Shown here piece by piece: positions 20,112 through 34,950 of a stretch of 64,000 nucleotides of DNA. The notes under the pieces were generated by a model. It had not been told where the DNA came from, did no database searches, and saw only the letters and a program-made list of their open reading frames with translations. Location of the stretch: assembly GCF_023540835.1 (NCBI RefSeq), contig NZ_JALKCU010000001.1:186001-250000 (forward strand), written 5' to 3'. Each line of letters starts with the position of its first letter. Position 1 is the stretch's first letter. The position numbers and the translations under genes were made by a program. Source of the stretch: Marivivens geojensis. Lineage in GTDB: Bacteria; Pseudomonadota; Alphaproteobacteria; Rhodobacterales; Rhodobacteraceae.

Positions 20112-20204
20112 ATGTATAGCCGACGCTAAAGAAGAACCCTTCCTGCGGAAGCTCTCATTCTTATGAATGATTACAGATAAAATGATCCCTCAGGGTTGGT
20201 GTCC

Positions 20205-20325: not shown

Positions 20326-20350
20326 ATTATGACAGAGAAAGTTATTGCCC

Positions 20351-21064: not shown

Positions 21065-21316
21065 GCGCTCACCCGAGCTGAGGCGGTTCCACTCTTCCGT
21101 TCTGCTGATGCACAGCCACTGAGAGAGGACAGCGAGGTCTGGGAGAACCCCTATGACGATCCGATCTTCTTTGTGCCTGACCCAGACCCGCAAGACCTGG
21201 ACGACTACTTGCACACTGAAGACACCGTCTCGGAGCGTGGTCACACAACGACCATAGGCAAGTCCACCCTCTACACCGGGACTGCGCTCTGGGAGCAGGT
21301 GGTGGGCTCACAATGA
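21065..21316 (+). pseudogene. In-frame continuation of the preceding gene after the TGA
   Basis: Directly after the TGA at 21062-21064 the same frame stays open for 83 codons up to TGA 21314-21316. It has no ATG and no ribosome site of its own. The translation is acidic and proline-rich, with VWENPYDDPIFFVPDPDP followed by QDLDDYLHTED, like the end of the part before the stop (DPYEEVPAPED). The simplest reading is a 321-codon gene broken by one nonsense change; stop-codon readthrough is the alternative. Confidence 0.5.
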
Positions 21317-21656
21317 AAGACTGAGACAACAGAGAGTAATTGAAGAGCTGGATTAGGCCTTGCGATGGTTTTAGGAGCAAGAGTTGCTTTGCGCCTTCCT
21401 TCGCATCACTTGCTACCTCCCGCCACGATAGCGTCCGGGACCACTGTACCGCTTCGCCTAGCCGCTGTCTCTTGCCCCCGTCCCAAGTCCAGAAAAGTGG
21501 AACGATATCATCACAATAGGGGTGCTTTTGTGGCAAAATCTGCTGGAGATCTTTTGGGACGGGACTGAATCTTTATCGACGGTTTGTGGTTTTACCTGGT
21601 GCTGTCCTGCCATCTCGTGAGGCGCGGAGTTCCCCCAAACCGGTCCATTATGCGTC

Positions 21657-21762
21657 AACTGTCCAAAAAACTGTCCAGGAAACTGTCCAAAAATATCTGA
21701 GTTTTGGACAGACCGTTTCCCATAAGATCAATGGCTTAGAGCCAAAACTGTCCAACTGTCCA
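21657..21762 (+). repeat. AACTGTCCA array with 12-bp period
   Basis: AACTGTCCA occurs at 21657, 21669 and 21681, exactly 12 bp apart, then inverted as TTTTGGACAG at 21702-21711, and again direct at 21746 and 21754. The reverse complement of the GGGACCAGTTTC element at attL reads GAAACTGGTCCC, which resembles AAACTGTCC. Array spacing and motif thus look like a second, diverged set of integrase arm sites, about 1 kb upstream of the second recombinase gene. Confidence 0.6.
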
Positions 21763-22053
21763 AGCCACTTCACTCATACCAATAGGTTTGGGTGACTCTG
21801 TTCATGGGTTGGGTGCTCTCATGCTGGTGGTCCCTGTCGTCTGGTGCATCCCCACCCTAGGGCAGTCCCCTCAGCTCGTGGTCTCTTGCTGTCCTGTGTG
21901 GCGCTGCTGATCCTCTCCATAGAGGTCGGTGACCAAGGGACCTGTCACATCTGCTCATACCCCCACTTTGCGTTCACTGATCTTGTCGGTGGGGGCATGA
22001 GAGAGCTGGTGTGCATACTGCAGAAGCAGAGTTTGCCCTGCCCCGGTGTCCCA

Positions 22054-22140
22054 CTGTCCCAGGGTTGGTCATTGGCCTTGGTTTACTCGACCTTTGGCTG
22101 GGACAGCGAAGTGTACCCTCTGTCCCAGGGTTGGTGTCCC
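22054..22140 (+). repeat. Repeat CTGTCCCAGGGTTGGT, two direct copies with an inverted core
   Basis: CTGTCCCAGGGTTGGT is present at 22054-22069 and 22120-22135, with CTGGGACAG (the inverse of its first nine bases) at 22098-22106 between them. The part CAGGGTTGGTGTCCC at 22126-22140 is also found at 20191-20205, next to the AT-rich stretch. The function is unknown; it may be a recombinase or regulator site. Confidence 0.5.
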
Positions 22141-22207
22141 ATCCCCCCCTCAGAACTGAGGAGTTTTGAGCATCTATGATGGTGACAACCCATCATGGAG
22201 AACGCTT

Positions 22208-22444
22208 ATGTTTACCTCACTCACACTGCTCGCCTGTGCGGGCGGTGCCCTTCGTCTTGGCCTGGGACTGGTCTTGTACCAGAAGACCCGGGTCGTCTTG
22301 TCTGTCCCTCAGGTACTGGCAGGTGCGCTTGTTGTTTTGGCGGGCCTGCCTGACGTTCTGAAGCCTGTGCCGTTCCCTCTCCCACCGGGACTGGTGCTGG
22401 GCTTTCTCTTGCCGGATCTCTTGTTCGCGAGGTCGGCAAAATGA
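22208..22444 (+). CDS. Small hydrophobic membrane protein
   Basis: A 78-residue protein from ATG 22208, with two likely membrane helices: about residues 3-24 (SLTLLACAGGALRLGLGLVL) and 32-48 (VPQVLAGALVVLAGLP), and a proline-rich hydrophobic end. Not recognised. Its stop overlaps the next ATG as ATGA at 22441-22444, so the two small genes are translationally coupled, and they are followed by the second recombinase gene. Small membrane proteins in such positions can be holin-like, toxin-like or immunity proteins; nothing in the sequence decides between these. Confidence 0.5.
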   Translation: MFTSLTLLACAGGALRLGLGLVLYQKTRVVLSVPQVLAGALVVLAGLPDVLKPVPFPLPPGLVLGFLLPDLLFARSAK

Positions 22445-22638
22445 CAGAGCGCGATCTTTCCCTCACCTCCGGCTGCATCGTTGTGATTGCCGCCTTCGAT
22501 GACGTCCCCGAACATACCTTCCGCGTGGAGGAGGTGTTCGAGGACTGTGTCACCGGGATCGCCCTCACGGGTCCTCTTGCAGGAGAGTACGGAGAGCCAG
22601 ACCTCTCGCTCATCCTGCAGGTGCTCCCGAGCACGTAA
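22441..22638 (+). CDS. Small acidic protein coupled to the preceding gene
   Basis: A 65-residue acidic protein (MTERDLSLTSGCIVVIAAF at the N-terminus, GPLAGEYGEPDLSLILQVL near the end) whose beta-strand-like pattern suggests a small barrel domain. Not recognised. It starts inside the stop of the small membrane protein gene. The pair has no promoter that I can point to. Codon use matches the two recombinase genes, not the GC-rich cargo to the right. Confidence 0.5.
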   Translation: MTERDLSLTSGCIVVIAAFDDVPEHTFRVEEVFEDCVTGIALTGPLAGEYGEPDLSLILQVLPST

Positions 22639-22667
22639 CCGCAACAGCCAAAACCCGTCAGTTCGGT

Positions 22668-22752
22668 CTTCAGGGGTCTGCCTAGTCCCTGAAGGCCTCT
22701 GACACGCATCACAAAATCCCACCTCACAGCACAAACCGGGGCCGCTGCCCCG
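22668..22752 (+). promoter_or_regulatory. Leader of the second recombinase gene with two hairpins
   Basis: CTTCAGGG (22668-22675) pairs with CCCTGAAG (22687-22694). A second hairpin CGGGGC-CGCT-GCCCCG occupies 22737-22752 and is followed at once by the ribosome site AAAGGAGA (22753-22760) and ATG 22765. A stable hairpin touching the ribosome site could influence translation of the recombinase. Confidence 0.4.
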
Positions 22753-22764
22753 AAAGGAGACCTC

Positions 22765-24111
22765 ATGTCGACACGTATTACGTATGCCAGCCTCCAGCAT
22801 AACACTTGGGTCTATCGCCGGACCTACCCGAGGCACCTACAGCCCCTCTTGGGCTCATCCCTGAAGCAATCCCTCAAGACCACCGATGCCCGGGTCGCCA
22901 AGGCACGGGTCGAGGAGCTGAATGCCACCTTCGCCAAGGTGGTGTCCGAAGCGGAGGCATCCCTGACGGATGAGAAGAAGAACGGCGTACTACATCCACA
23001 GACCACCTCATCCACCAGCACACCTGCAACCACCCCTGACACTCATACAGTTCAGCTGAAGGTCACACGTCCCCGCTATGCCCGTGTCTTGCTCCGAGGG
23101 GATAAGACCGTGGCTGAGATGGCCAAGGCCTATCTGGAGGAGCAGTGCCAGCGTCTGCGTCCTGGGAGCTACAAGTCGGTGCGCTTTGCGATGGAGCTGC
23201 TGACCTCTCACCTGGGGACCACATCCCTGAATGCCCTCACACTTGCACAGGGGAGAGAGGTCCTCAGCTTGATCAGTCGTCTTTCCCCCAACATCCGCAA
23301 GTACCGGGTGGCCTGGGGACAACCCCTGACCCAGCTGGCACGCCTGTCAGGGGAGCTGGAAAGCCAAACCCTGACCGCCAAGACCCAAGGGCGGATCTGG
23401 GAGCAGATGACAGGGTTCCTGACCTGGGCGGTCCAACAGGGGGAGCTCTCTGCCAACCCTTGGGAGAGGCTCACTCTTCTCGCCACCGAGAGGTCAGAGA
23501 CGAAGCCCCATGCGGTCTTGACGGATGAGCAGGTTGGTCTGCTGCTCCAGACGGTCAGCAGACAGTCCCAGGTCTATGGGGCACTGCTCTTTGGTCTTCT
23601 CGCAGGACTACGCTCCGGGGAGATCTGTGGCCTGACCTGGGGTGACATTCGATCGAAAGGCAACCTTGGCCGGTTTGTCTGCGTTCGACCCAACCAGCAC
23701 AGACCGTTGAAGTCGAAAGCGGCAGAACGGGAGGTTCCCCTGCATCCCACGCTTGAGGCCTATCTCGATCGGAGGAGCCCAGCCTCATCCCTCAGCACCA
23801 CCGACACCCCTGAGGACCGTCTCTTCCCACGTCTGACCGTCGATCGGGTGGTGAAGGCCTATGCCAAGCTGAGGACCCAGCATCCGACCCTCCAAGGCAC
23901 GGTGTTCCACTCTACCCGCAAGTGGTTCGTCACCCAGTGCGAACGCACAGGCACCCCGGAGCACTTCACCGCCACCCTCGTCGGTCACGCCTCCGCCCGC
24001 TCCGCCAACAGGCTCACCTACGGGCTCTACTCCGGCGGTATCTCCGATGAGCAGAAGCGGAGGATTATCGATGGGGTGAGGTTGCCAGTGCCAACCGGAG
24101 CGGAAGAGTGA
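22765..24111 (+). CDS. Second tyrosine recombinase
   Basis: A 448-residue tyrosine recombinase with an excellent ribosome site (AAAGGAG, 22753). The N-terminus (SLQHNTWVYRRTYPRHLQP) is of the type that reads a short beta-sheet DNA-binding domain. The catalytic residues are seen as Arg in LLAGLRSGEICGLTWGD, the H-x-x-R box in VFHSTRKWFVTQ, LVGHAS, and Tyr in LTYGLYSGG. It is only distantly similar to the first recombinase, so it is not a recent duplicate. Its own attachment site is not obvious; it may belong to an earlier element fused into this island or act on the AACTGTCCA array region. Confidence 0.92.
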   Translation: MSTRITYASLQHNTWVYRRTYPRHLQPLLGSSLKQSLKTTDARVAKARVEELNATFAKVVSEAEASLTDEKKNGVLHPQTTSSTSTPATTPDTHTVQLKVTRPRYARVLLRGDKTVAEMAKAYLEEQCQRLRPGSYKSVRFAMELLTSHLGTTSLNALTLAQGREVLSLISRLSPNIRKYRVAWGQPLTQLARLSGELESQTLTAKTQGRIWEQMTGFLTWAVQQGELSANPWERLTLLATERSETKPHAVLTDEQVGLLLQTVSRQSQVYGALLFGLLAGLRSGEICGLTWGDIRSKGNLGRFVCVRPNQHRPLKSKAAEREVPLHPTLEAYLDRRSPASSLSTTDTPEDRLFPRLTVDRVVKAYAKLRTQHPTLQGTVFHSTRKWFVTQCERTGTPEHFTATLVGHASARSANRLTYGLYSGGISDEQKRRIIDGVRLPVPTGAEE

Positions 24112-24114
24112 GGT

Positions 24115-24130
24115 AGGGACCGCCGTCCCT
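24115..24130 (+). terminator. Short hairpin after the second recombinase gene
   Basis: AGGGAC-CGCC-GTCCCT directly after the stop, six perfect pairs, no T-run. A weak terminator or a processing site. The rest of 24131-24375 holds no gene; the change to GC-rich cargo takes place near 24.36 kb, after a short AT-rich patch at 24320-24345. Confidence 0.35.
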
Positions 24131-24375
24131 CCGACGTAACCCCAACACAACACCCCGTTCGGTATCTCCATGTGAGGTATCGGGCGGGGGCAAATGAGAT
24201 ATTTTTTTGCACAAGGGCGGGGAGCGGATAGTCGCTGCGATGCGCGGTTCTATGAACGCGTCTCTAAAGCAGCCATTCGATGGATGGGATGGAGCTGACG
24301 CCGAATCTGACCCGAATCAAGTGATTGATTTAAATATATAATAACGCCCCAGCATGCACTCTTGCGCAAGCCCCT

Positions 24376-24702
24376 TCAGGCGGCCCGTGGCGCCGCGAGG
24401 ATGACGAAGGCGCCGATGAGGCAGAGGGCCGCACCGACCAGGTCCCAGCCATCCGGCCTCTGCCCCTCGGCGGTCCACATCCAGAGCAGCGATGCGGCGA
24501 TGTAGACCCCGCCATAGGCGGCGAAGGCGCGTCCGGCCAAGCCCACCTCGACCTGCGCGAGGAGCCAGCCGAAGGCCGCGAGGCTCGCCACGCCCGGCAG
24601 AAGCCAGAGCGCGGAGGCGCCGCTCCGCCACCAGGCCCAGACGGCAAAGCAGCCGGCGATCTCGGCCAGCGCGGCCAGCGGGTAGATCACGGCGGCCGGC
24701 AC
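24376..24702 (-). CDS. YnfA family (UPF0060) small multidrug-resistance-like membrane protein
   Basis: A 108-residue inner-membrane protein with four helices. The start GTG at 24702 gives the usual family length and begins 1 bp after the merR stop; an ATG at 24741 inside merR is the alternative. Family phrases seen are [33 protein letters not shown] and [16 protein letters not shown]. YnfA is distantly related to SMR exporters and its substrate is debated. It is downstream of merR in the same transcription unit, so it is probably under MerR control. Confidence 0.88.
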
Positions 24703-24703
24703 G

Positions 24704-25129
24704 TCAGGCCCCGGTCTGGTGGTCGGCGAGGCAGGCGCCATGGTCGCGCAGGACCTCGAGAACCCGGCAATCCGAGATGGTCTCCCGGCTGCATTCCCGC
24801 AGCATCCGCTTCAGTTCCGTGCGCAGCGCCTCCAGCCGGGCGATCCGGGCCTCGACCTCCTTGAGCTGGCGATGCGCGATGACATCCACCTCGGCGCAGG
24901 AGCGGGGGGGGTTGTCGGAGAGGTTCAGGAGCTCGCGGATCGCTTCGAGCGTGAACCCGAGCTGGCGCGCGTGCCGGATGAAGGCGAGCCGGTCGAGGTC
25001 GGCATTGCCGTAGCGCCGCTGCCCGCCTTCGGTCCGTCCCGGCTCGGGCAGAAGCCCGATCTGCTCGTAGTATCGGATGGTCTGCACCTTGGTGCCGGTG
25101 CGCTTGGCGAGCGTGCCGATGGCGAGCAT
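24704..25129 (-). CDS. MerR family metal-responsive regulator (Zn/Cd/Pb type)
   Basis: A 141-residue MerR protein from ATG 25129 ([20 protein letters not shown]), with a ribosome site AGGAGG before it. After the winged helix and the dimerisation helix, metal-ligand candidates are Cys78 (SCAEVD), Cys113 and Cys121 (CSRETISDC), and Cys133. A cysteine at the start of the dimer helix marks sensors of divalent ions (Cd, Pb, Zn, Hg); CueR-type copper sensors have serine there. The loop spacing C-x7-C, however, equals that of CueR. The nearby ATPase is of the divalent type, which supports Zn/Cd/Pb sensing. It is divergent from the sco-pcuAC-sco genes. Confidence 0.85.
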
Positions 25130-25146
25130 GTGGGGCCTCCTGATTG

Positions 25147-25183
25147 CTACAGCGATTGTAGGTTTTGCCATCGGCACATACAA
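25147..25183 (-). promoter_or_regulatory. merR promoter with overlapping dyad
   Basis: On the minus strand TTGTAT (25183-25178) and TACAAT (25160-25155) are separated by 17 bp, a normal spacer. A dyad CTACA-N5-TGTAG at 25147-25161 overlaps the -10 element, so MerR binding should repress its own gene. Confidence 0.6.
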
Positions 25184-25231
25184 GGGTGCTCACGAATGCG
25201 TCATGACGGCTGCCCCAGTTCAAAAAAGTGC

Positions 25232-25263
25232 TTGAACCTCTACCTACTGTAGCTTGTAGGTAG
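25232..25263 (+). promoter_or_regulatory. MerR-type promoter of the sco-pcuAC-sco genes
   Basis: TTGAAC (25232-25237) and TAGGTA (25257-25262) are 19 bp apart, the overlong spacer typical of MerR-activated promoters. Between and across them lies a perfect inverted repeat, CTACCTAC (25240-25247) and GTAGGTAG (25256-25263). The first sco gene starts 37 bp downstream. Confidence 0.78.
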
Positions 25264-25299
25264 CCGCCAAATCGAAGAATTGCGAGGCTTTCCGGGCGG

Positions 25300-25905
25300 A
25301 TGACAAGACTACAGAAAGGATTGTGGGCGGCGGTTGCCGTCGCCGCGCTCGGCGCGGGGGCACAGGCCGTGATGGAATCGCGCGCGCCGGAGGTCGCCAC
25401 AAGCGCCGCGTCCTTGGTGGTGGCCGAGTTCGAATTGACGGGCCATGACGGCGTTGTCCGCACCGAGGAGGATTTCTGGGGCAAGTGGACCCTCGTTTTT
25501 TTCGGCTTCACGAACTGCCCCGACATCTGCCCGACCACGCTGGCGGAGATCGCGCAGGTCATGGACGACCTCGGCCCGCAGGCTGACGCGGTGCAGCCGC
25601 TCTTCATCTCGGTGGACAGCGACCGTGACCGGCCGATGGATCTGGCCGAATACGTGCCGCTGTTTCATCCGTCGATCCTGGGCCTAACCGGCACGCCCGA
25701 CCAGATCGAGGCCGCCGCCGCGTCCTTCAAGATCTTCTACGAGCGCGTGCCGGAGGAGGACGCGCCCGACGGCTACATGATGGGCCATACGAGCCAGGTC
25801 TTCCTCTTCGACCCGGATGGCGGCTTCGTGCGGCTCTACGGCTACGGCACGCCCGCCCCGGAGATCACATCGGACCTTAGCGCGCGGATCGACGCGCGGA
25901 ATTAG
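25300..25905 (+). CDS. Sco family copper chaperone, first of two in the island
   Basis: A 201-residue Sco1/SenC protein with an N-terminal membrane anchor or signal (residues 7-24) and copper ligands Cys73 and Cys77 (NCPDICPTT) and His163 (MMGHTSQ). Such proteins carry Cu(I)/Cu(II) in the periplasm or act as thiol-disulfide reductases for the CuA site. It heads a three-gene unit with pcuAC and a second sco gene behind a MerR-type promoter. The sequence differs widely from the chromosomal SenC at 8055 and is much richer in GC, so it came with the island. Confidence 0.9.
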   Translation: MTRLQKGLWAAVAVAALGAGAQAVMESRAPEVATSAASLVVAEFELTGHDGVVRTEEDFWGKWTLVFFGFTNCPDICPTTLAEIAQVMDDLGPQADAVQPLFISVDSDRDRPMDLAEYVPLFHPSILGLTGTPDQIEAAAASFKIFYERVPEEDAPDGYMMGHTSQVFLFDPDGGFVRLYGYGTPAPEITSDLSARIDARN

Positions 25906-25941
25906 AGTTCTCAAGGATGCCCCAAATGACATGGAGACGAA

Positions 25942-26403
25942 ATGTTGAATAGATTTTCACGCGCCGCGTTGGTTCTTGGCCTTTTCGCTGTCGCGCCCCC
26001 CGTCCTCGCCGGCGGGGAGGACGTTGTGGTCGAAGACGCCTGGTCGCGTGCCTCGATCGGGACGGGCCGACCCGGCGTCGCCTACATGACGCTGCGCAAC
26101 ACCGGGGCTGAACCGGTCGTGGTGACCGGCCTGCGCACCGATCTCGCGATGATGCCGATGATCCATTCGACCACCACCGATGCGCAGGGCGTCACCCGCA
26201 TGTCGCATATGGAGGCGGTGGAGATCGCCGCGGGCGAGGCCGTCGCGCTCGCGCCCGGCGGATTGCACGTCATGCTCATGGACCTTCAGCGGCCGATGGT
26301 CGAGGGCGAGAGCTACACCCTGTCGGTGATCTTCGCCGACGGGACGGAGGCAACGGTCGACGTGCCGATCCTCGGCATCGCGGCGCGGGGGCCGGCGAAC
26401 TGA
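25942..26403 (+). CDS. PCuAC-type periplasmic copper chaperone
   Basis: A 153-residue secreted protein: signal peptide (residues 1-23, cleavage after VLAG), then a cupredoxin-like fold with the Cu(I) site of the PCuAC family: His75, Met87, His109 and Met111, i.e. H-x11-M-x21-H-x-M. PCuAC passes copper to Sco or directly to CuA of cytochrome oxidase. Placement between two sco genes fits this. The stop overlaps the next ATG (TGATG at 26401), so translation is coupled to the second sco gene. Confidence 0.92.
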   Translation: MLNRFSRAALVLGLFAVAPPVLAGGEDVVVEDAWSRASIGTGRPGVAYMTLRNTGAEPVVVTGLRTDLAMMPMIHSTTTDAQGVTRMSHMEAVEIAAGEAVALAPGGLHVMLMDLQRPMVEGESYTLSVIFADGTEATVDVPILGIAARGPAN

Positions 26404-27035
26404 TGCGGCGGCGCGCGCTCCTGCAATACGGCGCGCTCGGTTTCGGCGTCGCCGCGGCCACGCTCTTCGCGGGCTGGTGGCAGGTCGACGGCCCCGGCGC
26501 GCCGGACACCGCCACGGGCGACGGGCGTCCGCTGCCGCTCACCGCGATGGACTTCGCCCTCACCGACCACGAAGGACAGCCGGTCGGGCCGGAGACGCTG
26601 CTCGGCCGTGCCTCGCTCGTCTTCTTCGGTTTCACCTGGTGCCCCCAGGTCTGCCCGACCACGCTCGCCGACATCTCGCACTGGCTCGACGGTCTTGGGG
26701 ACGAAGCAGATGCGCTCGACGTCGTACTGATCACCGTCGATCCGGAGCGGGATACCATTGACGCGATGGCCGAGTATATCGGCTATTTCCATCCGCAGGT
26801 CCGCGGCTGGTCCGGCAGCCCGGCAGAGATCGCGCGCGCGGCGGACGGCTTCCGGGTGCGTTATGAGAAAGTATCCCTCGAAGGTGGCAATTACACGATG
26901 GACCACACCGCGGGCGTGTTCCTGTTCGATGCCGAAGGCGCGTTCGTCAGCATCATCGACTACCACGAGCCCCGCGACTTCGCGCTGCCGAAGATCCGCC
27001 GCGCGATGGCCGCACCTGACGGAGCCACCGGCTGA
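26403..27035 (+). CDS. Sco family copper chaperone, second of two in the island
   Basis: A 210-residue Sco protein starting with an arginine-rich, Tat-like leader (MRRRALLQYGALGFGVAAAT). Copper ligands are Cys80 and Cys84 (WCPQVCPTT) and His168 (TMDHTAG). It differs enough from the neighbouring Sco to suggest distinct partners or one serving as reductant and the other as copper donor, as proposed for other Sco/PCuAC pairs. A hairpin at 27038 follows and a new MerR-type promoter then drives the ATPase gene. Confidence 0.9.
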   Translation: MRRRALLQYGALGFGVAAATLFAGWWQVDGPGAPDTATGDGRPLPLTAMDFALTDHEGQPVGPETLLGRASLVFFGFTWCPQVCPTTLADISHWLDGLGDEADALDVVLITVDPERDTIDAMAEYIGYFHPQVRGWSGSPAEIARAADGFRVRYEKVSLEGGNYTMDHTAGVFLFDAEGAFVSIIDYHEPRDFALPKIRRAMAAPDGATG

Positions 27036-27037
27036 TA

Positions 27038-27055
27038 GCCGCTGCCGGCAGCGGC
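27038..27055 (+). terminator. GC-rich hairpin after the second sco gene
   Basis: GCCGCTG-CCGG-CAGCGGC, seven perfect pairs with four-base loop, 2 bp after the stop codon. No T-run follows, so it is a weak or Rho-aided terminator. Confidence 0.45.
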
Positions 27056-27086
27056 CTGCCGCCATACGAAGTGGCGCAGGCAGCAC

Positions 27087-27117
27087 TTGAAGCTACAGTT
27101 GCTGCAGGTCTTATGTT
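27087..27117 (+). promoter_or_regulatory. MerR-type promoter of the P-type ATPase gene
   Basis: TTGAAG (27087-27092) and TATGTT (27112-27117) are separated by 19 bp with the dyad CTACAG-TTG-CTGCAG (27093-27107) in the spacer. The half-site CTACA is shared with the two dyads around merR, indicating control by the same regulator. Confidence 0.7.
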
Positions 27118-27151
27118 TATGCCCGAACCGGAAGAATAACGGAGAATCACC

Positions 27152-29446
27152 ATGGCCGACGGGAGCACAGAACTACGCGAATGGCGCGTGACGGGCATGG
27201 ATTGCGGGTCCTGCGCCGCCAAGGTGCGCGGCGCGGTCGAGCGCCTGCCGGGCGTGGCGGATGTCGATGTGGCACTTATGGCCGAGCGGCTGCGTCTGAC
27301 GCTCGACGAGCGTCAGACCTCTCCCGAAAGCATCGAGAAAGCCGTTCGCGGGGTCGGGTTCGGCATTGCGGCAAAGGGAGCGCAACCAGAGAAGCCCAAG
27401 GGTGGCTTCGTCCTGCCCGATGGTGCGTTTCCCCTGGCCGCGGAAGCCCCGGACCCCAAGGGCGAGCCTGCGGAAGACGCCGCAGAGCAGCCGCAGGAGG
27501 CACCGACGCCGTCCTGGTATCAGACAGCGAAGGGGCAGCTCGTGATCGGCACAGGGGCCCTTCTGGCGGCAGCCTGGGCATCTCGCTTCGCGTTTCCCGC
27601 GGATATCGCCCATTGGGCCTTCATCCTTGCGACCCTGATCGGACTCGTCCCCGTGGCGCAGCGCGCGTTCGCCATGGCGCGGGCAAGGATGCCCTTCACG
27701 ATCGAGATGCTGATGACGATCGCCGCTGGCGGCGCGCTGGTGATCGGCGAGGCAGAAGAGGCCGCGCTGGTCGTCTTTCTCTTCGCGGTGGGCGAGTTGC
27801 TGGAAGGGGTCGCGGCCGGCAAGGCGCGCGACAGCATCCGGGCACTCTCGAAGCTCGTGCCGAAGACGGCGCAGCTCGAGGTGGGTGGCAAGATCCGTGA
27901 GGTCCCGGCGGAGCGGCTCCAGGTCGGCCAGGTCGTTCAGGTCCGCCCCGGTGACAGGGTGCCCTGTGACGGCGAGGTGATCGATGGCACCTCGGGTGTC
28001 GACGAGAGCCCGGTGACGGGCGAGAGTGTCCCGAGCCTCAAGGAGCCGGGCGCGGAGGTCTTCGCCGGGTCGATCAACGCGGAGGCGCTCTTGCGCGTGC
28101 GAGTCACGAAGGCAGCCGACGACAACACCATCGCTCGCATCGTCCGCCTCGTGGAGGAAGCCGAGAGCGCCCGCGCCCCGACCGAGCGCTTCATCGACCG
28201 GTTCAGCCGGGTCTACATGCCCGCCGTCGTCGGAGCCGCAGTCCTCGTCGCCGTCGTTCCGCCGCTGGCCTTCGGGCTGGCCTGGGGCGACTGGGTCTAC
28301 CGCGCCTTGGCGCTTCTGCTGATCGGCTGCCCCTGCGCGCTGGTCATCTCGGTGCCGGCCTCGATCACTTCGGCGCTCTCCACGGGGGCCCGCAACGGCC
28401 TGCTGATGAAGGGCGGCGCCGTGATCGAGGCCGCGGCCCGCACGACCCATGTGGCATTCGACAAGACCGGAACCCTCACCCACGGCAAGCCCCGTGTCAC
28501 CGACATCACGGCTCTTTCGGGAAGCGTGGACGAACTTCTGTCCCTCGCCGCCGGGGTCGAGAGCGGTGCGAGCCACCCGCTCGGACAGGCAATATGCGCA
28601 GAGGCAGAGCGGCGCGGCGTGGATGCGGCAGCAACGACCGGCGGCCACGCGCTGCCCGGCAAGGGGGCGGAAGCCGCCATCGACGGCGTGACCGTCAGCG
28701 TGGGCTCCCCGCGGCTTGCGGATGAGCGTGGCGCGCTCACGAACGACCTGCGGACCTGCGTGGCGGCACTGGAAGCCGGGGGCAAGACGGTGGTCATCGT
28801 GTTGCGCGATGACGTGCCCCAGGGCCTCATTGCGCTCAGGGACGAGCCGCGCGCCGATGCGGCCGTCGCCGTGGCGCAACTCCGCACGCTTGGCATCTCA
28901 TCCGTGATGCTGACCGGGGACAACAAACGCACGGCGCAGGCCATCGCCGAAGGGCTTGGGATCGCGCATCACTCCGAACTCATGCCGGAAGACAAGGTGA
29001 CGGCGATCCGTGATCTGACGTCCGACGCACGCGTGATGATGATCGGCGATGGGATCAACGATGCACCCGCGCTTGCCGCCGCCCATGTCGGCGTCGCCAT
29101 GGGCTCGGGCACCGATGTCGCGCTGGAGACGGCCGACGCGGCGATCCTGCGCAATCGCGTGACCGATGTGGCGAGCAAGATCCGCCTCGCCCGCGCGACC
29201 ATGACAAACATTCGCCAGAACATCGCCATCGCACTCGGGTTGAAGGCGGTCTTCCTCGTGACCACCCTGCTCGGGATCACCGGCCTCTGGATCGCAATCC
29301 TCGCAGACACGGGCGCCACAGTACTGGTAACGATGAACGCCCTCCGGCTGCTGTTCTTCCGGCCCTCCGTGGCGATCGACACGCCGCAACATGCGAGCCA
29401 TGACAACGGAAACACGCGCTCCGACCGCGTATCCGCAACGACTTGA
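27152..29446 (+). CDS. zntA: Heavy-metal P1B-type ATPase, Zn/Cd/Pb subgroup (ZntA/CadA-like)
   Basis: A 764-residue inner-membrane pump. One N-terminal HMA domain has Cys18 and Cys21 (GMDCGSC); a Pro/Glu linker (about 85-125) leads to eight membrane helices. Seen are TGES at 289-292, the membrane CPC at 393-395, the phosphorylated DKTGTLT (Asp437), the HP of SGASHPLG, and GDGINDAP. In the last helices, LKAVFLV and LADTGATVLVT carry the Lys and Asp that define the Zn/Cd/Pb group, as opposed to copper pumps. It therefore exports divalent metal even though its neighbours are copper chaperones. RBS: CGGAGAA before the ATG. Confidence 0.93.
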   Translation: MADGSTELREWRVTGMDCGSCAAKVRGAVERLPGVADVDVALMAERLRLTLDERQTSPESIEKAVRGVGFGIAAKGAQPEKPKGGFVLPDGAFPLAAEAPDPKGEPAEDAAEQPQEAPTPSWYQTAKGQLVIGTGALLAAAWASRFAFPADIAHWAFILATLIGLVPVAQRAFAMARARMPFTIEMLMTIAAGGALVIGEAEEAALVVFLFAVGELLEGVAAGKARDSIRALSKLVPKTAQLEVGGKIREVPAERLQVGQVVQVRPGDRVPCDGEVIDGTSGVDESPVTGESVPSLKEPGAEVFAGSINAEALLRVRVTKAADDNTIARIVRLVEEAESARAPTERFIDRFSRVYMPAVVGAAVLVAVVPPLAFGLAWGDWVYRALALLLIGCPCALVISVPASITSALSTGARNGLLMKGGAVIEAAARTTHVAFDKTGTLTHGKPRVTDITALSGSVDELLSLAAGVESGASHPLGQAICAEAERRGVDAAATTGGHALPGKGAEAAIDGVTVSVGSPRLADERGALTNDLRTCVAALEAGGKTVVIVLRDDVPQGLIALRDEPRADAAVAVAQLRTLGISSVMLTGDNKRTAQAIAEGLGIAHHSELMPEDKVTAIRDLTSDARVMMIGDGINDAPALAAAHVGVAMGSGTDVALETADAAILRNRVTDVASKIRLARATMTNIRQNIAIALGLKAVFLVTTLLGITGLWIAILADTGATVLVTMNALRLLFFRPSVAIDTPQHASHDNGNTRSDRVSATT

Positions 29447-29458
29447 AAGGATATATTC

Positions 29459-29926
29459 ATGACCCTCACCAGACGTGCCCTGCTGGCGATTACCGCGAGC
29501 TTCGCTGCCACCGTTCCCCTTCCAGGAATGGCCCAGACTGCGCCCGCAATCCACGTGCTGAAGGACCCGAACTGTGGGTGCTGCACTGCCTGGATCGATA
29601 TCCTGAAAGAAGACGGATTCACCGTCACTACCGAGCGCAGTTTCGGCACCCTCCTGATCCGGCACAAACTCGAGAACGGCATCCCCCAGAATATAACCTC
29701 CTGCCACACCGGTGAGATCGAGGGCTATTTCATCGAGGGCCACGTCCCGCCCGCCGACATTCGACGGCTGCTGTCCGAGCGCCCCGATGCTGTCGGTCTT
29801 GCGGTGCCCGGCATGCCCTACGGTTCGCCAGGCATGGGCCTGGAAGAGAGCCGCGAGGCCTACGATGTGTTCCTGATCCGGCACGACGGCAGCACCGAGG
29901 TGTTCACGCGCTACGAGGCTGCATGA
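29459..29926 (+). CDS. DUF411 periplasmic metal-binding protein
   Basis: A 155-residue exported protein with a Tat-like leader (LTRRALLAITASFA) and the DUF411 core: CGCC at residues 39-42 in DPNCGCCTAWI, a further Cys in ITSCHTGEIEGYFIEGHVP, and PGMPYGSPGM near the end. DUF411 proteins are thioredoxin-like and are found beside copper and silver resistance genes; they are thought to bind metal in the periplasm. It lies 12 bp after the ATPase gene with its own ribosome site and ends the plus-strand metal module; the next genes run towards it. Confidence 0.88.
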   Translation: MTLTRRALLAITASFAATVPLPGMAQTAPAIHVLKDPNCGCCTAWIDILKEDGFTVTTERSFGTLLIRHKLENGIPQNITSCHTGEIEGYFIEGHVPPADIRRLLSERPDAVGLAVPGMPYGSPGMGLEESREAYDVFLIRHDGSTEVFTRYEAA

Positions 29927-30018
29927 CCTTCCCTGGTTTGGTCGTGTCACCGCCCCTCACCACTCGGACACATGTACTTGTCGCCGCGGCATGAACTCCC
30001 AGGCGCGGTTCGCGGTGG

Positions 30019-30444
30019 TCAAGGCCGATAGGCAGCATCCTGCTGCCAGCCGGTGAAGCCGGTCTGCATGACGACGACGTTCGACCGTCCCGCGACCCGC
30101 AGCGCGAAGGCCGCCTGTGCCGAGAGGCTGCCGGTGTTGCAGAACAGGATGGTCATGCGGCCCTCGGGGATCTCGTCGATCCGGTCGAGCACCTCGCGCC
30201 ACTCAATGTTGACGGCACCGGGGATGGTGCCTTCCTCAAACTGACCCGCATCGCGGGTGTCGACGAAAAGCGCGGTCTCGAACACGGTCTGGTCGATCTG
30301 CTGGGGCAGGATGATGCCGGATTCGTATTCCGAGAACATCATGTATTCCTGCATGACCTCAACGGCTGCGTCTTGTGCCAAGGCGGGCGCTGCATGCAGC
30401 CCGAGCGCGACGGTCGTCGCCAAAAGTAGTTGTTTCAGGGTCAT
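30019..30444 (-). CDS. Periplasmic rhodanese-like sulfurtransferase
   Basis: A 141-residue single-domain rhodanese with a clear signal peptide (MTLKQLLLATTVALGLHAAPALA). The active-site loop is FCNTGSLS with Cys102, and DTRDAGQFEEGTIPGAVNI is the usual first half of the fold. It would move sulfane sulfur or act on persulfides in the periplasm. It is the last gene of the minus-strand operon that starts with the hydroxylase gene at 33924. Confidence 0.88.
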   Translation of the reverse strand: MTLKQLLLATTVALGLHAAPALAQDAAVEVMQEYMMFSEYESGIILPQQIDQTVFETALFVDTRDAGQFEEGTIPGAVNIEWREVLDRIDEIPEGRMTILFCNTGSLSAQAAFALRVAGRSNVVVMQTGFTGWQQDAAYRP

Positions 30445-30485
30445 CCGGGGGTATCCTCCATTCCGGTTTCTTGGTGTTCGGGTGT

Positions 30486-30791
30486 TCAGGTGTTTCGTGC
30501 AAGCCAGCCCTTCGTGCCGCCCTCGAGCCAGAGGGCGTCCGGGTGGCCCAACTTCTTCAGTATGTCCGCACCCTCTGCTGACCGACCGCCGCCCTTGCCG
30601 CAGATGGTCACGGGTGTCTTTCCAACCGGCATTTCACCGGTGCAGTCTTCGAGTTCGGCCAGCGGGATATGCGGGATATGGACGGCGCCCGTCACATGGG
30701 CGGAGGAGAAGTCTTCCGCGTCGCGGACGTCGATCATGTGTAAGCAATCCGGGTTGGCCGCGAGGGCGGCGAGCGTGAGCATTTGAGCCAT
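30486..30791 (-). CDS. Cytoplasmic single-domain rhodanese
   Basis: A 101-residue rhodanese without a signal peptide: MIDVRDAEDFSSAHVTGA, and the active-site loop ICGKGGGRSAEG with Cys64. The start ATG 30791 overlaps the dsrE stop (TGATG), so the two are made together, and a persulfide handover between the DsrE protein and this rhodanese is likely. The open frame continues 72 codons upstream inside dsrE but that is a shadow. Confidence 0.88.
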   Translation of the reverse strand: MAQMLTLAALAANPDCLHMIDVRDAEDFSSAHVTGAVHIPHIPLAELEDCTGEMPVGKTPVTICGKGGGRSAEGADILKKLGHPDALWLEGGTKGWLARNT

Positions 30792-31144
30792 CAGACCACC
30801 AGCACCTTGTCGACGGCGAGCGTCGCCTGGGCGAGTTCGTCCATGGTCGATCGGCTCGCCCCCTCCATCATGTCGCCCTCGGTCAGGCCGCGCGCATCCA
30901 TGGAGGTACCGCACATAAGGACGCGCCCCTTGGCGGATAAGAGCCTGCGGAGTGTGCGCTCGAGGTTGTAGTAGCCATCGGGCGTCTTCTGCCCCGCCTT
31001 GGCACAAAGCACCGCGTCGGCTATCAGGAAGACGGTGATTTCCGCTTCAGGTTCGTTCTTGGCAAGCGCGTGGGCCATGCGCAGCCCGTTGAAGCTACGC
31101 TCGTTGCCGTAGGGCGGATCGTTCAGAAGGATCAGGTGTTTCAT
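30791..31144 (-). CDS. DsrE/DsrF-like family sulfur carrier
   Basis: A 117-residue DsrE-fold protein. It starts MKHLILLNDPPYGNERSFNG and has candidate sulfur-carrying cysteines at 47 (AVLCAKAG) and 78 (VLMCGTSMDARG). The position of Cys78 corresponds to the conserved cysteine of DsrE relatives that bind persulfide sulfur. It lies between the broken DUF1499 gene and the rhodanese gene in one operon. Confidence 0.88.
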   Translation of the reverse strand: MKHLILLNDPPYGNERSFNGLRMAHALAKNEPEAEITVFLIADAVLCAKAGQKTPDGYYNLERTLRRLLSAKGRVLMCGTSMDARGLTEGDMMEGASRSTMDELAQATLAVDKVLVV

Positions 31145-31153
31145 TTTGGGTCC

Positions 31154-31770
31154 TCAGGTCCGGGCGCGCGTTTCAAGCTCCGACAGGAAGGCTTCGATGC
31201 GTCGTGCATTGGCCCCGCGGTCGATCTGGCCGAGGCGCGAGCGCGAGCGCATGTCGATGCGAGCGCCGCTTTCGGTTTCGGTCACGCGGATTGCCACCTC
31301 GTCCTCGAAGGCAAACAGACGGCTCCGGGCGATGGCCTCGATCTGGCTCTCCGCGGGATCGGCCGACAGCACCTCCCAGCCGCGCTGTTCCACGAGGGCG
31401 AGCGCCGCCGCGAACGCCTCGTCTGCGGAGACCGGCAGGTCCAGCGGGCGTACGTCCAGATAGGCGGCGCGCTGCGGGCTGCGATCTCGAACGCCGCACC
31501 AAGACATGCGACCGGCAGCGACAGGATCAACCCCAGCAGGACCGCGCCAGCGCGACCGTTCCTGCGGCGCAGCCAGACCACCAGCCCGGCCAGCGCGGCG
31601 ATGACGCCGGCACCGGCCGCCCAGGCGCTCCAGCCGGCAAGGTCATAGGCCTGCGGCCAGGGCCAGCCGCCCGCCCGGAAGCCCCAGACAGAGACTGCAA
31701 GAAGCGCGATTGAGGCGACGCCCAACAAGATCGAAAGGAAGCCCAGAGAGCGGGCAAGCGTGTCAGGCAT
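31154..31770 (-). pseudogene. DUF1499 family membrane protein, broken by an out-of-frame deletion
   Basis: The frame from ATG 31770 (MPDTLARSLGFLSILLGVAS) gives the N-terminal half of a DUF1499 protein with three or four membrane helices and runs into the conserved ARSAPPI, then into non-family sequence. The C-terminal half (RAAYLDVRPLDLPV up to ANARRIEAFLSELE) is in another frame ending at 31154. The two conserved parts meet on the same bases, around 31470-31490, where the DNA for APPI in one frame is the DNA for RAAY in the other. About 35 residues that normally lie between are absent. This fits a deletion at a short homology, leaving the gene non-functional. The start overlaps the MFS stop. 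Confidence 0.75.
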
Positions 31771-33073
31771 CTGCAAGCTCCCGTGGGCTGGCGGGGTTCA
31801 GTCGCGGGTGGGTTTCCTCGGAGAGCCAGAACAGAAGCCCGCCGGAGACGAACATGGATACCGCAACGAACCAGAAGGCCGCTTCCGCAGCGCCGGTCAG
31901 GCTGGCCGCCAGCCCGAGACCGAGCGCGCCGATCGCGTAGCCGAGGTCGCGCCAGAAGCGGTAGATTCCGATGGCCGAGCCGCGCCAGGCCGGCGGGGTG
32001 ATGTCGGCGACCGCCGCCCCGAGGTTCGGATAGAGGAGCGCCATGCCGAAGCCGGCCACCCCGGCCGAGACCGACCACCATAGCGCGCCGGTGCCCATGA
32101 CCACCATCGCCACGCCAGCACCGCAGATCCACATGCCGAGCACGTTGGGCCAGAAGCGCCCGACATGGTCCGACAGCCGCCCGGTGACAAGTTGCGAGCC
32201 GCCCCAGACAAAACCGTAGGTGCCGACGATCCAGCCGACCTCGGTCAAGGTCGCGCCTTGCGTCACGAGGAAGACCGGGAACAGCGCCCAGACCAGCGCA
32301 TCGACGAACTTCTCGACCAGCCCCGCCTGGGAGATCGCGAAAAGCCGACGGTCGCGCCAGCTCATCACCGCGAAGACCTCTCCCGTCGTGGGATTCTCGG
32401 ACACGCCCTGCGGATAGCGCGGTAGGGCTTTCGGCGGCGCTGCCTTGTGCGCGGCAGTTTCTGCCTTCGCCCAAGGAAGCGTGTCTTTCACCCAGACAAC
32501 CGTCAGGACCAGTGCCAGTAGGACCACCGCCATGCCGAAGACCAGCAGGCCGACACGTGCCCCCAGCCACTCGGCGGCATATGCGGTGACGACGCCCGCG
32601 ATCGCCACGCCGACATAGCCGGAGAATTCGTTGAGCCCCATGGTGAGGCCACGTTCCTCGGCCCTCGTGATATCGAGTTTGGCGGTCTGCGTCATCGACC
32701 AGCAAAGGCCCTGATTGACGCCCAAAAGCACAGTCGCCGCGACGATCCAGTTCCAGTCCGGCGCGGACCAGATCATCACCGGGATCGGCAGCGCCACGAC
32801 CCAGCCCCAGAACAGCACCCGCTTGCGCCCGATCCGCTCGGACCACCGCCCGGCGACGAAGTTCATCACCGCCTTAACCGCACCGAAGGCCACGACGAAG
32901 GACGCCAGCAGCAGGAACGAGCCGCGCTCGAGCCCGAACTCGCTTTCGGCCAGCGCCGGGACCACCGTGCGCGTCATGCCGATGGCGAAACCCACCAGCA
33001 TGACCTGGATCAGCTGATGCGCGACCTGGACCCGGTTCTCGCGGATGCCGCGCGTGTACTCACACGCGGTCAT
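31763..33073 (-). CDS. Major facilitator superfamily transporter
   Basis: A 436-residue inner-membrane transporter with twelve predicted helices and a cytoplasmic loop in the middle (about residues 200-240). MFS signatures are GRWSERIGRKRVLF after helix 2 and GRLSDHVGRFWP after helix 8. No specific substrate family can be named; it is the type found in operons with ArsR-rhodanese regulators and rhodaneses, where export or import of sulfur or metal species is suspected. Its start overlaps the upstream hydroxylase gene by ATGA and its end overlaps the DUF1499 pseudogene. Confidence 0.9.
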   Translation of the reverse strand: MTACEYTRGIRENRVQVAHQLIQVMLVGFAIGMTRTVVPALAESEFGLERGSFLLLASFVVAFGAVKAVMNFVAGRWSERIGRKRVLFWGWVVALPIPVMIWSAPDWNWIVAATVLLGVNQGLCWSMTQTAKLDITRAEERGLTMGLNEFSGYVGVAIAGVVTAYAAEWLGARVGLLVFGMAVVLLALVLTVVWVKDTLPWAKAETAAHKAAPPKALPRYPQGVSENPTTGEVFAVMSWRDRRLFAISQAGLVEKFVDALVWALFPVFLVTQGATLTEVGWIVGTYGFVWGGSQLVTGRLSDHVGRFWPNVLGMWICGAGVAMVVMGTGALWWSVSAGVAGFGMALLYPNLGAAVADITPPAWRGSAIGIYRFWRDLGYAIGALGLGLAASLTGAAEAAFWFVAVSMFVSGGLLFWLSEETHPRLNPASPRELADA

Positions 33074-33924
33074 TCGGCGGGCTCCTTCGTCGTGATGCGC
33101 GGGTCGAGCGCGCCGCCCGAGGCCGGTCCGCGTAAAGGCTGGACCAGCATCCGGTCGAGCCAGAGATCGCGGCGCGTGCGGAACTGCTCGATGCCGATCT
33201 CCATCCCCTCATGCCCCTTGGCGGGCTGGGCGATGTAGGTGCCGAGGAGCTGGTCCCACCACGGCAGGTTGAAGCCGTAGTTCGAGTTGGTCACGCGCGG
33301 GTCAATGGAATGGTGGACGCGGTGCATGTCGGGCGTGACCACGATCAGCCGCAGCACCCCGTCTACCGGGCGCGGCAGGTCGATGTTGGCGTGGTTGAAG
33401 AGCGCTGTGGCGTTCAGGATCACCTCGAACAGCAGCACCGCGACGGCGGGCGGTCCGAGCGCCGCGACCACCGCCAGCTTGATCTCCATCGAGATGAGGA
33501 TCTCCACGGGATGGAACCGCAGTCCCGTGGTCGCGTCGAAGTCGAGATCGGCGTGGTGCATCCGGTGCAGCTGCCAGAGCCCAGGCACTGCGTGGAACAT
33601 CACGTACTGGAGGTAGATCGCCAGATCGAGCAACAGCATCGAAACCACAACCGCGACCCAGATCGGCACATCGAGATTGTTGAATAGGCCCAAGCCGTGA
33701 TCCTCGGCCATGACGGCGAGCCCGACGGCGATGATCGGGAAGGTCAGCCGCAGGATCGCGGTGTCGAGCACCACAAGCGCGAGGTTGTTCGTCCAGCGGA
33801 TGACGCGCGGGATCTCCCGACGCCTCCGCGGCGCCGCCACCTCCCACAGCGCCATGGCCACCAAGACGCCGAGAAAGGCAGCAAGGCGAATGGTTAGTTC
33901 AGCGGCGAGGATGGTCTCGGACAT
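33070..33924 (-). CDS. Sterol desaturase / fatty acid hydroxylase family protein
   Basis: A 284-residue membrane di-iron oxygenase. Helices lie at about residues 10-30, 45-70 and 88-110. The histidine clusters are H111 with H120, H123 and H124 (QLHRMHH), H138, H178 (FNHAN), and H201, H204 and H205 (MHRVHH), as in the family. It would hydroxylate or desaturate a lipid. First gene of the minus-strand operon, 88 bp from the divergent arsR-rhodanese gene with the ArsR-type palindrome between. Why a lipid hydroxylase is grouped with sulfur-transfer genes is not clear; membrane adjustment under stress is one idea. Confidence 0.88.
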   Translation of the reverse strand: MSETILAAELTIRLAAFLGVLVAMALWEVAAPRRRREIPRVIRWTNNLALVVLDTAILRLTFPIIAVGLAVMAEDHGLGLFNNLDVPIWVAVVVSMLLLDLAIYLQYVMFHAVPGLWQLHRMHHADLDFDATTGLRFHPVEILISMEIKLAVVAALGPPAVAVLLFEVILNATALFNHANIDLPRPVDGVLRLIVVTPDMHRVHHSIDPRVTNSNYGFNLPWWDQLLGTYIAQPAKGHEGMEIGIEQFRTRRDLWLDRMLVQPLRGPASGGALDPRITTKEPAE

Positions 33925-33968
33925 GGGATGTGGACTTCGGACTTGTGGGACGCGATGAAATCGCTATT

Positions 33969-33988
33969 ATTCAAGTTATCGCTTGAAT
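33969..33988. promoter_or_regulatory. ArsR-type operator palindrome
   Basis: ATTCAAG-N6-CTTGAAT, seven perfect pairs around a six-base centre, midway between the divergent starts at 33924 and 34012. ArsR/SmtB repressors bind such 7-n-7 AT-rich palindromes. It should control both the ArsR-rhodanese gene and the six-gene operon. Confidence 0.75.
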
Positions 33989-34011
33989 GATGTAGCGTCA
34001 GGAGGCACGAC

Positions 34012-34680
34012 TTGTCAATCAGCCCGAAGTTGGCCCTGCTGGAAGAATACGCCCTCGTCGCGCGCGCCTTATCGGCACCGGCGCGTCTGATGCTGCTGGA
34101 ACAACTGGCGCAAGGCGAACGCGGGGTCGAGGCTCTTGCCGACAAGACAGGCCTGACCATCGCCAACTGCTCGCAGCACCTGCAACAGTTGCGCCGCGCC
34201 GCACTCGTCACCAGCCGCCGCGACGGCAAGGCGGTGATCTACCGGCTGACCGACGCGAAGACGCTTCAACTGATGGACCTTCTGCGCATCGTTGCGGAGC
34301 GGAACCTCGCGCAGGTCGAGCGCATCTTGCGGGGGCTCTCGGGCGGCGAGGATGCCCCTGAGCCGGTCAGCAGAGAAGACCTGTCAGCCTGGATCGCCGA
34401 AGGTTCTGTGACCGTGCTCGATGTTCGCCCCGCGGACGAATACGCTGCAGGTCACATTTCGGGTGCGCACAACATGACGCTGACGGAGATCGAGCGGATC
34501 GTCCCGACGCTCGATCCGGCCACCGAAATCGTGGCCTATTGCAGGGGCCCTTATTGCATCTATGCCCACCAGGCTGTCGCCGCACTTCGCAAACACGGCC
34601 TCAATGCGCGCCGCCTTGACGGCGGTCTGCCGGAGTGGCGCGAGGATGGAAGGGTTGTGGAAACGGCCGCGATGAACTGA
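34012..34680 (+). CDS. ArsR family regulator fused to a rhodanese domain
   Basis: A 222-residue fusion, start TTG 34012 preceded by AGGAGG at 34000-34005. Residues 10-100 are an ArsR winged helix (ALSAPARLMLLEQLAQGERG; recognition helix around ANCSQHLQQLRR with Cys53). Residues 118-215 are a rhodanese with active Cys177 and a second Cys182 (YCRGPYCIYA). The fusion suggests that a sulfur modification on the rhodanese cysteine controls DNA binding. It lacks the two-cysteine arrangement of the SqrR/BigR persulfide sensors in the helix-turn-helix part. It is divergent from the operon it most likely represses. Confidence 0.9.
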   Translation: MSISPKLALLEEYALVARALSAPARLMLLEQLAQGERGVEALADKTGLTIANCSQHLQQLRRAALVTSRRDGKAVIYRLTDAKTLQLMDLLRIVAERNLAQVERILRGLSGGEDAPEPVSREDLSAWIAEGSVTVLDVRPADEYAAGHISGAHNMTLTEIERIVPTLDPATEIVAYCRGPYCIYAHQAVAALRKHGLNARRLDGGLPEWREDGRVVETAAMN

Positions 34681-34932
34681 CCATAGCAGCCTGATCACTC
34701 CATATATAAAAGTTTGCGCTGGCAAGCGCGATAGGGCTCGGTTGAATGACTGCATTCTCGTCATTTGACTGCTTCCGCGAAGAGTAATCGACCGGCAGCT
34801 TTGGGCCGGTTGTGTATCATCGCCTCGTCGATATTGCTTTGAGCAACCCCGGGACCGCTTTCGGGACCACTTCTGCGAAAGCGCCCACCACTAACCCTCT
34901 ATAATTTCATCGAAATTGGCGGTGTTAGATTG
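34681..34932. other. Right end of the island, non-coding
   Basis: No gene is seen between the ArsR-rhodanese stop and attR. It holds two GGGACC dodecamers (34851, 34863) and a 15-bp palindrome AATTTC-ATC-GAAATT at 34903-34917 which could bind an accessory factor of excision. Confidence 0.5.
34851..34874 (+). repeat. GGGACC dodecamers beside attR (probable integrase arm sites)
   Basis: GGGACCGCTTTC at 34851 and GGGACCACTTCT at 34863, one 12-bp step apart and in the same orientation as those next to attL. Presence at both ends, same spacing, fits arm-type sites used by the first recombinase. Confidence 0.65.
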
Positions 34933-34950
34933 CCCTTCAGCGGCACCAGT
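34933..34950 (+). repeat. attR, 18-bp duplicate of the tRNA-Thr end
   Basis: CCCTTCAGCGGCACCAGT, identical to 18429-18446. No tRNA precedes it; it marks the right boundary of the island. Chromosomal sequence with an nsrR-like gene starts after it. Confidence 0.9.

Follow-up and report, generated by a model that had tools for sequence, protein, structure and literature searches.

The divergent unit and its genes

Within a 64,000-nucleotide window of the Marivivens geojensis genome (NCBI RefSeq GCF_023540835.1, contig NZ_JALKCU010000001.1, positions 186,001 to 250,000; all coordinates below count from the first letter of this window), we studied a divergent unit (30019–34680) made of a plus-strand repressor gene and a leftward operon, which probably responds to sulfane sulfur through a rhodanese domain fused to the repressor. 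The repressor gene (34012–34680, plus strand), assigned from Pfam, an AlphaFold2 model and its relatives, encodes an ArsR-family protein of 222 amino acids with a C-terminal rhodanese domain carrying Cys177 and Cys182, and starts with a TTG codon preceded by AGGAGG. On the minus strand, the operon comprises the genes for a membrane protein of the fatty-acid-hydroxylase family (FAH hereafter; 33070–33924; Pfam FA_hydroxylase, 90.2 bits, HxxHH motifs present, conserved histidine columns and a tree), an MFS carrier (31763–33073; Pfam, 153.2 bits) that matches no curated NCBIfam family at its cut-off, a DUF1499 protein (31154–31776), a DsrE-family protein with Cys78 (30791–31144; Pfam, 85.6 bits for a cut-off of 22.7, and alignment), a cytoplasmic single-domain rhodanese with Cys64 (30486–30791; Pfam, 58.3 bits) and a second single-domain rhodanese with Cys102 (30019–30444; Pfam, 54.8 bits), putatively exported, as its N-terminal stretch reads like a signal peptide. 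FAH, the MFS carrier, DsrE and both rhodaneses all exceed their Pfam cut-offs; the DsrE protein matches the general domain but not the curated TusD model (30.7 bits for a cut-off of 89.25). Between the two divergent starts lies the palindrome ATTCAAG-N6-CTTGAAT (33969–33988), the sole perfect match in the window, which, written as ATTCAA-N8-TTGAAT, is also the single perfect site in the 3.18-Mb genome; its TTCAA begins at −42 relative to the regulator start. An earlier interpretation of this DNA, made without database searches (the sequence-only reading), had already described the ArsR–rhodanese fusion, the palindrome and four cysteines (regulator Cys177, DsrE Cys78, Cys64 and Cys102 of the two rhodaneses), all of which we recovered where it had placed them, but its list of sulfur cysteines overlooked Cys182, which is as conserved as Cys177.

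The same reading held that the six operon genes overlap tightly, which is true of FAH and MFS (4 bp), of MFS and DUF1499 (8 or 14 bp, depending on the start codon) and of DsrE and the cytoplasmic rhodanese (1 bp), but not of DUF1499 and DsrE, 9 bp apart, nor of the two rhodaneses, separated by 41 bp. Because the reading frames of these three pairs overlap, translational coupling within the operon is likely; a promoter scan between the operon genes returned no promoter-like site and one terminator-like stem. Nor is the gene set intact as it had been described, since about 103 bp are missing inside DUF1499, shifting its frame and leaving the N-terminal half in 31282–31776 and the C-terminal half in 31154–31507 (according to open reading frames, Pfam and a comparison with relatives, in which the gene is intact). 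A sister species carries identical damage, and a sequencing error is ruled out, because this second assembly shows the same state; the two copies being identical, they do not represent independent events.

The repressor family and its operator

The regulator was found in 16 of 295 family genomes, 16 of 385 class genomes and 47 of 398 phylum genomes (own genome included), while 91 plasmid records of several groups matched partly, none of them covering 80% of the query. Altogether, we fetched 137 loci, i.e., 15 from the family, 15 from the class, 20 from the phylum (hand-picked among the 47 positive genomes and taken with flanks), 80 from contigs (the best 80 of 574 relatives) and seven from plasmids, corresponding to 135 distinct regulators (the duplicates being L032/L119 and L027/L123). 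In 27 of the 137, the contig extends for less than 6 kb on the side before the regulator, so that partners may have been missed. A regulator stub with stops (L126), two loci with no regulator above the threshold or unscanned (L006 and L009) and short copies (L010–L013, L094–L110 and L127–L168) had been excluded before counting. Cysteine conservation was counted in the 50 “profile-found” loci, i.e., the family, class and phylum sets read with flanks and obtained from whole-protein profile searches, because the motif AYCRGP[YFW]C was one of the two search patterns of the contig set; the profile of the former searches contains the cysteine motif but does not require it.

In these 50 loci, Cys177, Arg178, Cys182, D137, E143 and H148 are invariant and R139 is present in 49, the loop of the rhodanese domain usually reading C-R-G-[PA]-[YWF]-C. 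The only other cysteine of the window regulator, Cys53, is conserved in 12 of the 50, all from the family set, and in 29 of the 50 the core is devoid of any cysteine besides Cys177 and Cys182. Both would sit in one loop, since in the confident AlphaFold2 model (pLDDT 94.7, pTM 0.88) residues 172–176 form the strand that precedes it and a helix begins at residue 184. At the domain level, the protein matches Pfam Rhodanese (65.1 bits) and HTH_20 (35.5 bits) as well as NCBIfam HTH_metalloreg (72.4 bits for a cut-off of 55), which corresponds to a winged-helix ArsR DNA-binding domain, while it scores 59.9 bits with the NCBIfam BigR model, short of its cut-off of 155. In structure searches, the rhodanese half is closest to the MBL–rhodanese protein 3tp9 (Z 17.9, 1.3 Å over 102 residues), followed by BH2092 (Z 17.8), persulfide dioxygenase–rhodanese fusions (16.4) and GlpE (16.3), and it also matches the rhodanese domain of CoA-persulfide reductase. 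Its active-site loop exceeds that of 3tp9 by two residues and aligns without gaps with that of BH2092 (C-W-G-P-A-C; PDB 3nhv and 3o3w), which shares the C-x-G-P-x-C pattern but is, unlike the window regulator, a stand-alone rhodanese chain with no DNA-binding domain in the solved structure. For the DNA-binding half, CzrA (Z 15.0, 1.7 Å over 93 residues) is tied with the mycobacterial 3gw2 (Z 14.1, 1.2 Å over 93). The latter, together with 2kko, is fragment 1–100 of Mb0332 (42% identity, 1.1 Å, among the closest solved DNA-binding domains), a protein that we take to be the same as Rv0324 and to carry a rhodanese domain. Rv0324 has been reported in drug tolerance, with no ligand named in the passages concerned (PMC9480834).

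We infer that the palindrome is the operator of the repressor. Its core, TTCAA-N8-TTGAA, is found at positions −150 to +60 relative to the regulator start at 11 of 15 loci each from the family and the class, at 8 of 20 from the phylum, 41 of 80 from contigs and 4 of 7 from plasmids, hence in 75 of 137, whereas mononucleotide shuffles yield at most 0.01 loci per set and no other spacing of the half-sites is found in more than four loci; the exact form is not present in the remaining 62. With the persulfide-sensing repressors SqrR, BigR, SoxR, sHdrR and YgaV, the unit has in common the ArsR fold, the sulfur-handling neighbours and the half-site ATTC. Yet, the window regulator lacks their dithiol, with Glu30 at the first position, and gains a rhodanese domain with Cys177 and Cys182. 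The persulfide-sensing dithiol of BigR is formed by Cys42 and Cys108 of the ArsR domain, according to the relevant part of PMC9774590; Glu30 is aligned with a BigR cysteine, taken to be Cys42, and the position is Glu in 49 and Asp in one of the 50 profile-found loci. The deduced SqrR site is ATTC-N8-GAAT in the corresponding passage of PMC9774250, a form seen in 0 of our 137 loci, where ATTC-N12-GAAT is common instead. The unit appears to work like a BigR/SqrR regulon but, as neither the dithiol nor the operator spacing agrees, is not a member of that group by the tests made. A search of the open-licence PMC literature, with subscription papers outside its scope, found no description of an ArsR–rhodanese regulator with these partners.

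Exchangeable partners on a mobile island

All seven window genes occur together in only 5 of the 137 loci (L014, L015, L019, L111 and L114), all from Alphaproteobacteria and one of them belonging to the sister species, in which DUF1499 is broken alike; the count may be low, as the profile used for the cytoplasmic rhodanese was built from a single sequence. The gene set on which the sequence-only reading had proposed a conserved-neighbourhood check is thus not a fixed unit, and a seven-gene block is ruled out. In contrast, a sulfur-handling gene (DsrE, a separate rhodanese, TauE, a NifS-like desulfurase or MBL; VTT-only matches not counted) lies within 6 kb of the regulator in 89 of the 137 loci and in 28 of the 50 profile-found ones, against 2 of 20 control loci around FAH genes without regulator; for a P-type ATPase, the counts are 14 and 6, respectively. 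DsrE is near the regulator in 46 of 137 loci, while a fusion of a VTT (DedA-type) domain with a rhodanese stands beside it in 21, often adjoining FAH (e.g., L071, 6787–7953); TauE, the NifS-like desulfurase and a second type of MFS carrier recur as well. Rhodanese, persulfide dioxygenase, TauE and RND are listed as neighbours of persulfide-sensing ArsR repressors in the part of PMC12423496 considered here. The regulator family exchanges its effectors but retains the repressor with its loop cysteines and, at more than half of the loci, the operator. Genes senA or senB were also seen near the ArsR–rhodanese regulator in records of Reyranella, Asaia and Hydrogenophaga (L050, L083, L084, L092 and L004).

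Among the 21 families counted, FAH is the commonest neighbour, found within 6 kb in 13 of 15 family, 8 of 15 class, 9 of 20 phylum, 35 of 80 contig and 4 of 7 plasmid loci (69 of 137 in total). In 57 of the 137, the slot of the first divergent gene is held by FAH, and in 19 by an MBL protein; with MBL present in 28 loci overall, the two coexist in only two (L001 and L116), where FAH is the divergent first gene and the MBL gene is on the opposite side. This mutual exclusion is suggestive (Fisher P = 1e-7, a statistic that ignores shared ancestry). Detoxification operons of the BigR or CstB type share with our loci a modular layout in which an ArsR repressor is accompanied by rhodanese, MBL persulfide dioxygenase, TauE and YeeE; the window operon differs in that none of its genes encodes an MBL persulfide dioxygenase (Blh, CstB or ETHE1), its divergent slot being occupied by FAH, while a related MBL protein fills the same slot in sibling loci. 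When compared to the PDB, one of these MBL proteins is closest to two MBL–rhodanese chains (3tp9 and 3r2u), with lower matches to a glutathione hydrolase, the persulfide dioxygenase–rhodanese BpPRF and ETHE1.

The sole curated NCBIfam match of FAH is the ornithine lipid hydroxylase OlsE, far under the family cut-off (83.4 bits for 475). A sequence search of the PDB gave no match, and a fold search with its model (pLDDT 81.1) gave none at E ≤ 0.001, which is uninformative. In a tree of 58 rows thinned from 80, rooted for drawing only and with unlinked rows from a single family, the regulator-linked proteins are split from ten family copies of chromosomal origin by a branch with support 100/99; nonetheless, nine of the 48 rows on the linked side are unlinked, and the labels change 7 times, for 16.3 in shuffles. 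Consequently, the idea that FAH is a mere housekeeping gene is partly rejected by the split, the nine unlinked rows notwithstanding. Members of the subfamily also exist where the repressor is absent, next to copper genes, housekeeping genes or a cation transporter, which favours for FAH a lipid modification that protects the membrane in general; the slot shared with MBL favours, more weakly, an oxygenase acting on sulfur. Close FAH relatives without regulator were observed in L009 (6441–8793) and in L237, L238 and L239, the last three beside a VTT-type protein; on the D. shibae plasmid pDSHI01, the matching DNA is flanked by DUF411 and a cation diffusion transporter.

The operon is cargo of a 16.5-kb island (18369–34950) inserted in a tRNA-Thr gene (18369–18444) and bounded by 18-bp direct repeats, the left one (18429–18446, plus strand) at the 3′ end of the tRNA gene and the right one (34933–34950, plus strand), a copy of that 3′ end, just past the repressor. 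From the tRNA gene onwards, the island carries two integrases, of which the phage-type one (18543–19913, plus strand; Pfam, 57.3 bits) adjoins it, a MerR regulator, two SCO1 proteins, a heavy-metal P-type ATPase (27152–29446, plus strand; Pfam), a DUF411 protein (29459–29926, plus strand; Pfam) and then the operon. Four congeners (L261–L264) have an empty site, in which DNA matching the window beyond the right repeat (66–69% identity) begins about 70–155 bp after the tRNA-Thr stretch. Compared with the sister species (G117), identity reaches 100% in the operon and 99.2% over a 13-kb part of the island, for 91–95% at the integrase end and 89% in the DNA beyond the right repeat; the insertion site is likely the same but is not read through, since in G117 the tRNA lies at the end of one contig and the island at the end of another. 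Given the empty sites and this contrast in identity between island (100% and 99.2%) and flank (89%), the operon is recently moved cargo. A third congener harbours part of the operon at 86% identity (L259, 7186–11506) about 470 bp from a tRNA-Ser gene, so that integration of the cargo may not be confined to a single site.

Sulfane sulfur as the probable signal, and its rivals

Since the effectors are swapped while the repressor, the loop cysteines and, in more than half of the loci, the operator are kept, the family would answer to one chemical class of signal, with the effectors suggesting sulfane sulfur. The sequence-only reading had proposed that persulfidation of the rhodanese domain is what reads out the regulator, and a repressor governed by such a sulfur transfer appears to be the best reading, because Cys177 is invariant in the 50 profile-found loci and sulfur genes lie nearby in 28 of them. 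It had also envisioned an undescribed sulfane-sulfur relay or export system, with one of the cysteines beyond the membrane and a transporter between it and the others; a single linear relay of this kind is not supported as stated because the partners are exchanged between loci. We therefore regard a sulfane-sulfur-responsive repressor, sensing via its rhodanese domain and controlling a modular sulfur-stress operon, as the probable nature of the unit. Briefly, the repressor bound to ATTCAA-N8-TTGAAT would block both its own gene (autoregulation) and the divergent operon; upon a rise in sulfane sulfur (polysulfide, persulfide or thiosulfate-derived persulfide), Cys177 would take up sulfur and its persulfide would react with Cys182 of the same loop, yielding a sulfur bridge in place of the SqrR dithiol, whereupon the repressor would leave the DNA and the operon would be made. 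DsrE and the cytoplasmic rhodanese may then carry cytoplasmic sulfane sulfur and the secreted rhodanese handle the periplasmic pool, while the MFS carrier would export a sulfur product (sulfite, thiosulfate or a persulfidated small thiol) and FAH would modify a membrane lipid or, less likely, oxidise sulfur within the same stress response.

Several observations weigh against this interpretation. The longer loop of the regulator compared to 3tp9 leaves sulfur transfer not assured, the window DsrE has CGTS where most relatives have CGTC, and the apparently decaying DsrE of one relative (L115, 7073–7390, near the regulator) has no Cys78. Without MBL, the loci with a sulfur-handling gene drop from 89 to 74 of 137, while 22 of the 50 profile-found loci have no counted sulfur family within 6 kb and five have no recognised partner at all; moreover, the control, in which sulfur-handling genes occur in 2 of 20 loci around FAH genes without regulator, is small and non-random. 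Three MBL proteins match GloB best in NCBIfam, with 59.7–69.1 bits for a cut-off of 200.8, and the MBL proteins reach 36.9–52.7 bits with the Blh dioxygenase for a cut-off of 625, so that their label as persulfide dioxygenase relatives is not secure. FAH is not known to have a role in sulfur chemistry. Finally, copper-type genes share the island, which leads to the first of the rival explanations.

ArsR proteins are classical metal sensors, and the loop cysteine pair could bind a soft metal or metalloid (copper, arsenite or mercury), with the operon protecting the cell and the sulfur carriers acting as metal sinks. The P-type ATPase, DUF411, the two SCO1 proteins and the MerR regulator of the island fit such a signal, as do other loci that adjoin merA, a multicopper oxidase, RND pumps or an arsenic-resistance gene; however, P-type ATPases (other metal genes not having been pooled) are much rarer near the regulator than the sulfur-handling families (14 against 89 of 137 loci and 6 against 28 of 50), and the domain bearing the cysteines is a rhodanese with D137, E143, H148 and R178 in all 50 loci and R139 in 49. 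The metal-only response raised by the sequence-only reading is thereby weakened to an unlikely alternative, which the copper-type genes of the island keep in contention. Less probable still is that mobile genes sharing no function accumulated here by chance, the rhodanese domain of the regulator being a remnant or serving as an allosteric site for some other anion: the rarity of the full set, the decay of DUF1499 and the mobility of the island would be expected in that case, but the invariant loop cysteines, the conserved operator, the overlapping frames and the partner families recurring across classes would not. A selenium compound, such as a selenite-derived perselenide, with the operon in selenium handling, is the most improbable of these signals. 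In its favour, NCBIfam profiles recognise a SenA selenoneine synthase in L083 (499.7 for a cut-off of 420) and a SenB selenosugar synthase in L050 (390.6 for 300), SenB is annotated near the regulator in Hydrogenophaga, and a SenA match lies within 6 kb in 6 of 80 contig, 1 of 20 phylum and 1 of 7 plasmid loci; on the other hand, neither SenA nor SenB is matched within 6 kb in the window or in the 15 family and 15 class loci, and the selenium genes are possibly no more than island neighbours.

Returning to the sulfane-sulfur reading, a bolder version would combine a large regulator branch in which a fused rhodanese, its C-x4-C loop serving as both sulfur acceptor and switch, replaces the ArsR dithiol, with FAH as a membrane di-iron oxygenase standing in for the persulfide dioxygenase and oxidising sulfane sulfur or a sulfur-loaded lipid, but as a whole this combination is a doubtful one. 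More generally, the ArsR–rhodanese loci make it testable why a lipid-family hydroxylase is the commonest neighbour of the regulator and takes the slot used by MBL elsewhere. In the same genome, a two-cysteine SoxR/SqrR-like repressor of the canonical kind (L011, 1435–1770) adjoins genes reading like a CcdA-like protein, a thioredoxin-like protein and a YeeE/SoxT-like transporter, and both sensor designs would thus coexist in this organism. The unit is a candidate for a second design of sulfane-sulfur sensing, in which the repressor carries a fused enzyme domain in place of an internal cysteine pair. According to the passages of PMC12423496 concerned, many sHdrR-like regulators near sulfur-oxidation genes are devoid of both cysteines and may work differently; for such regulators, the ArsR–rhodanese family, present in 47 of the 398 phylum genomes, offers a concrete and widespread candidate.

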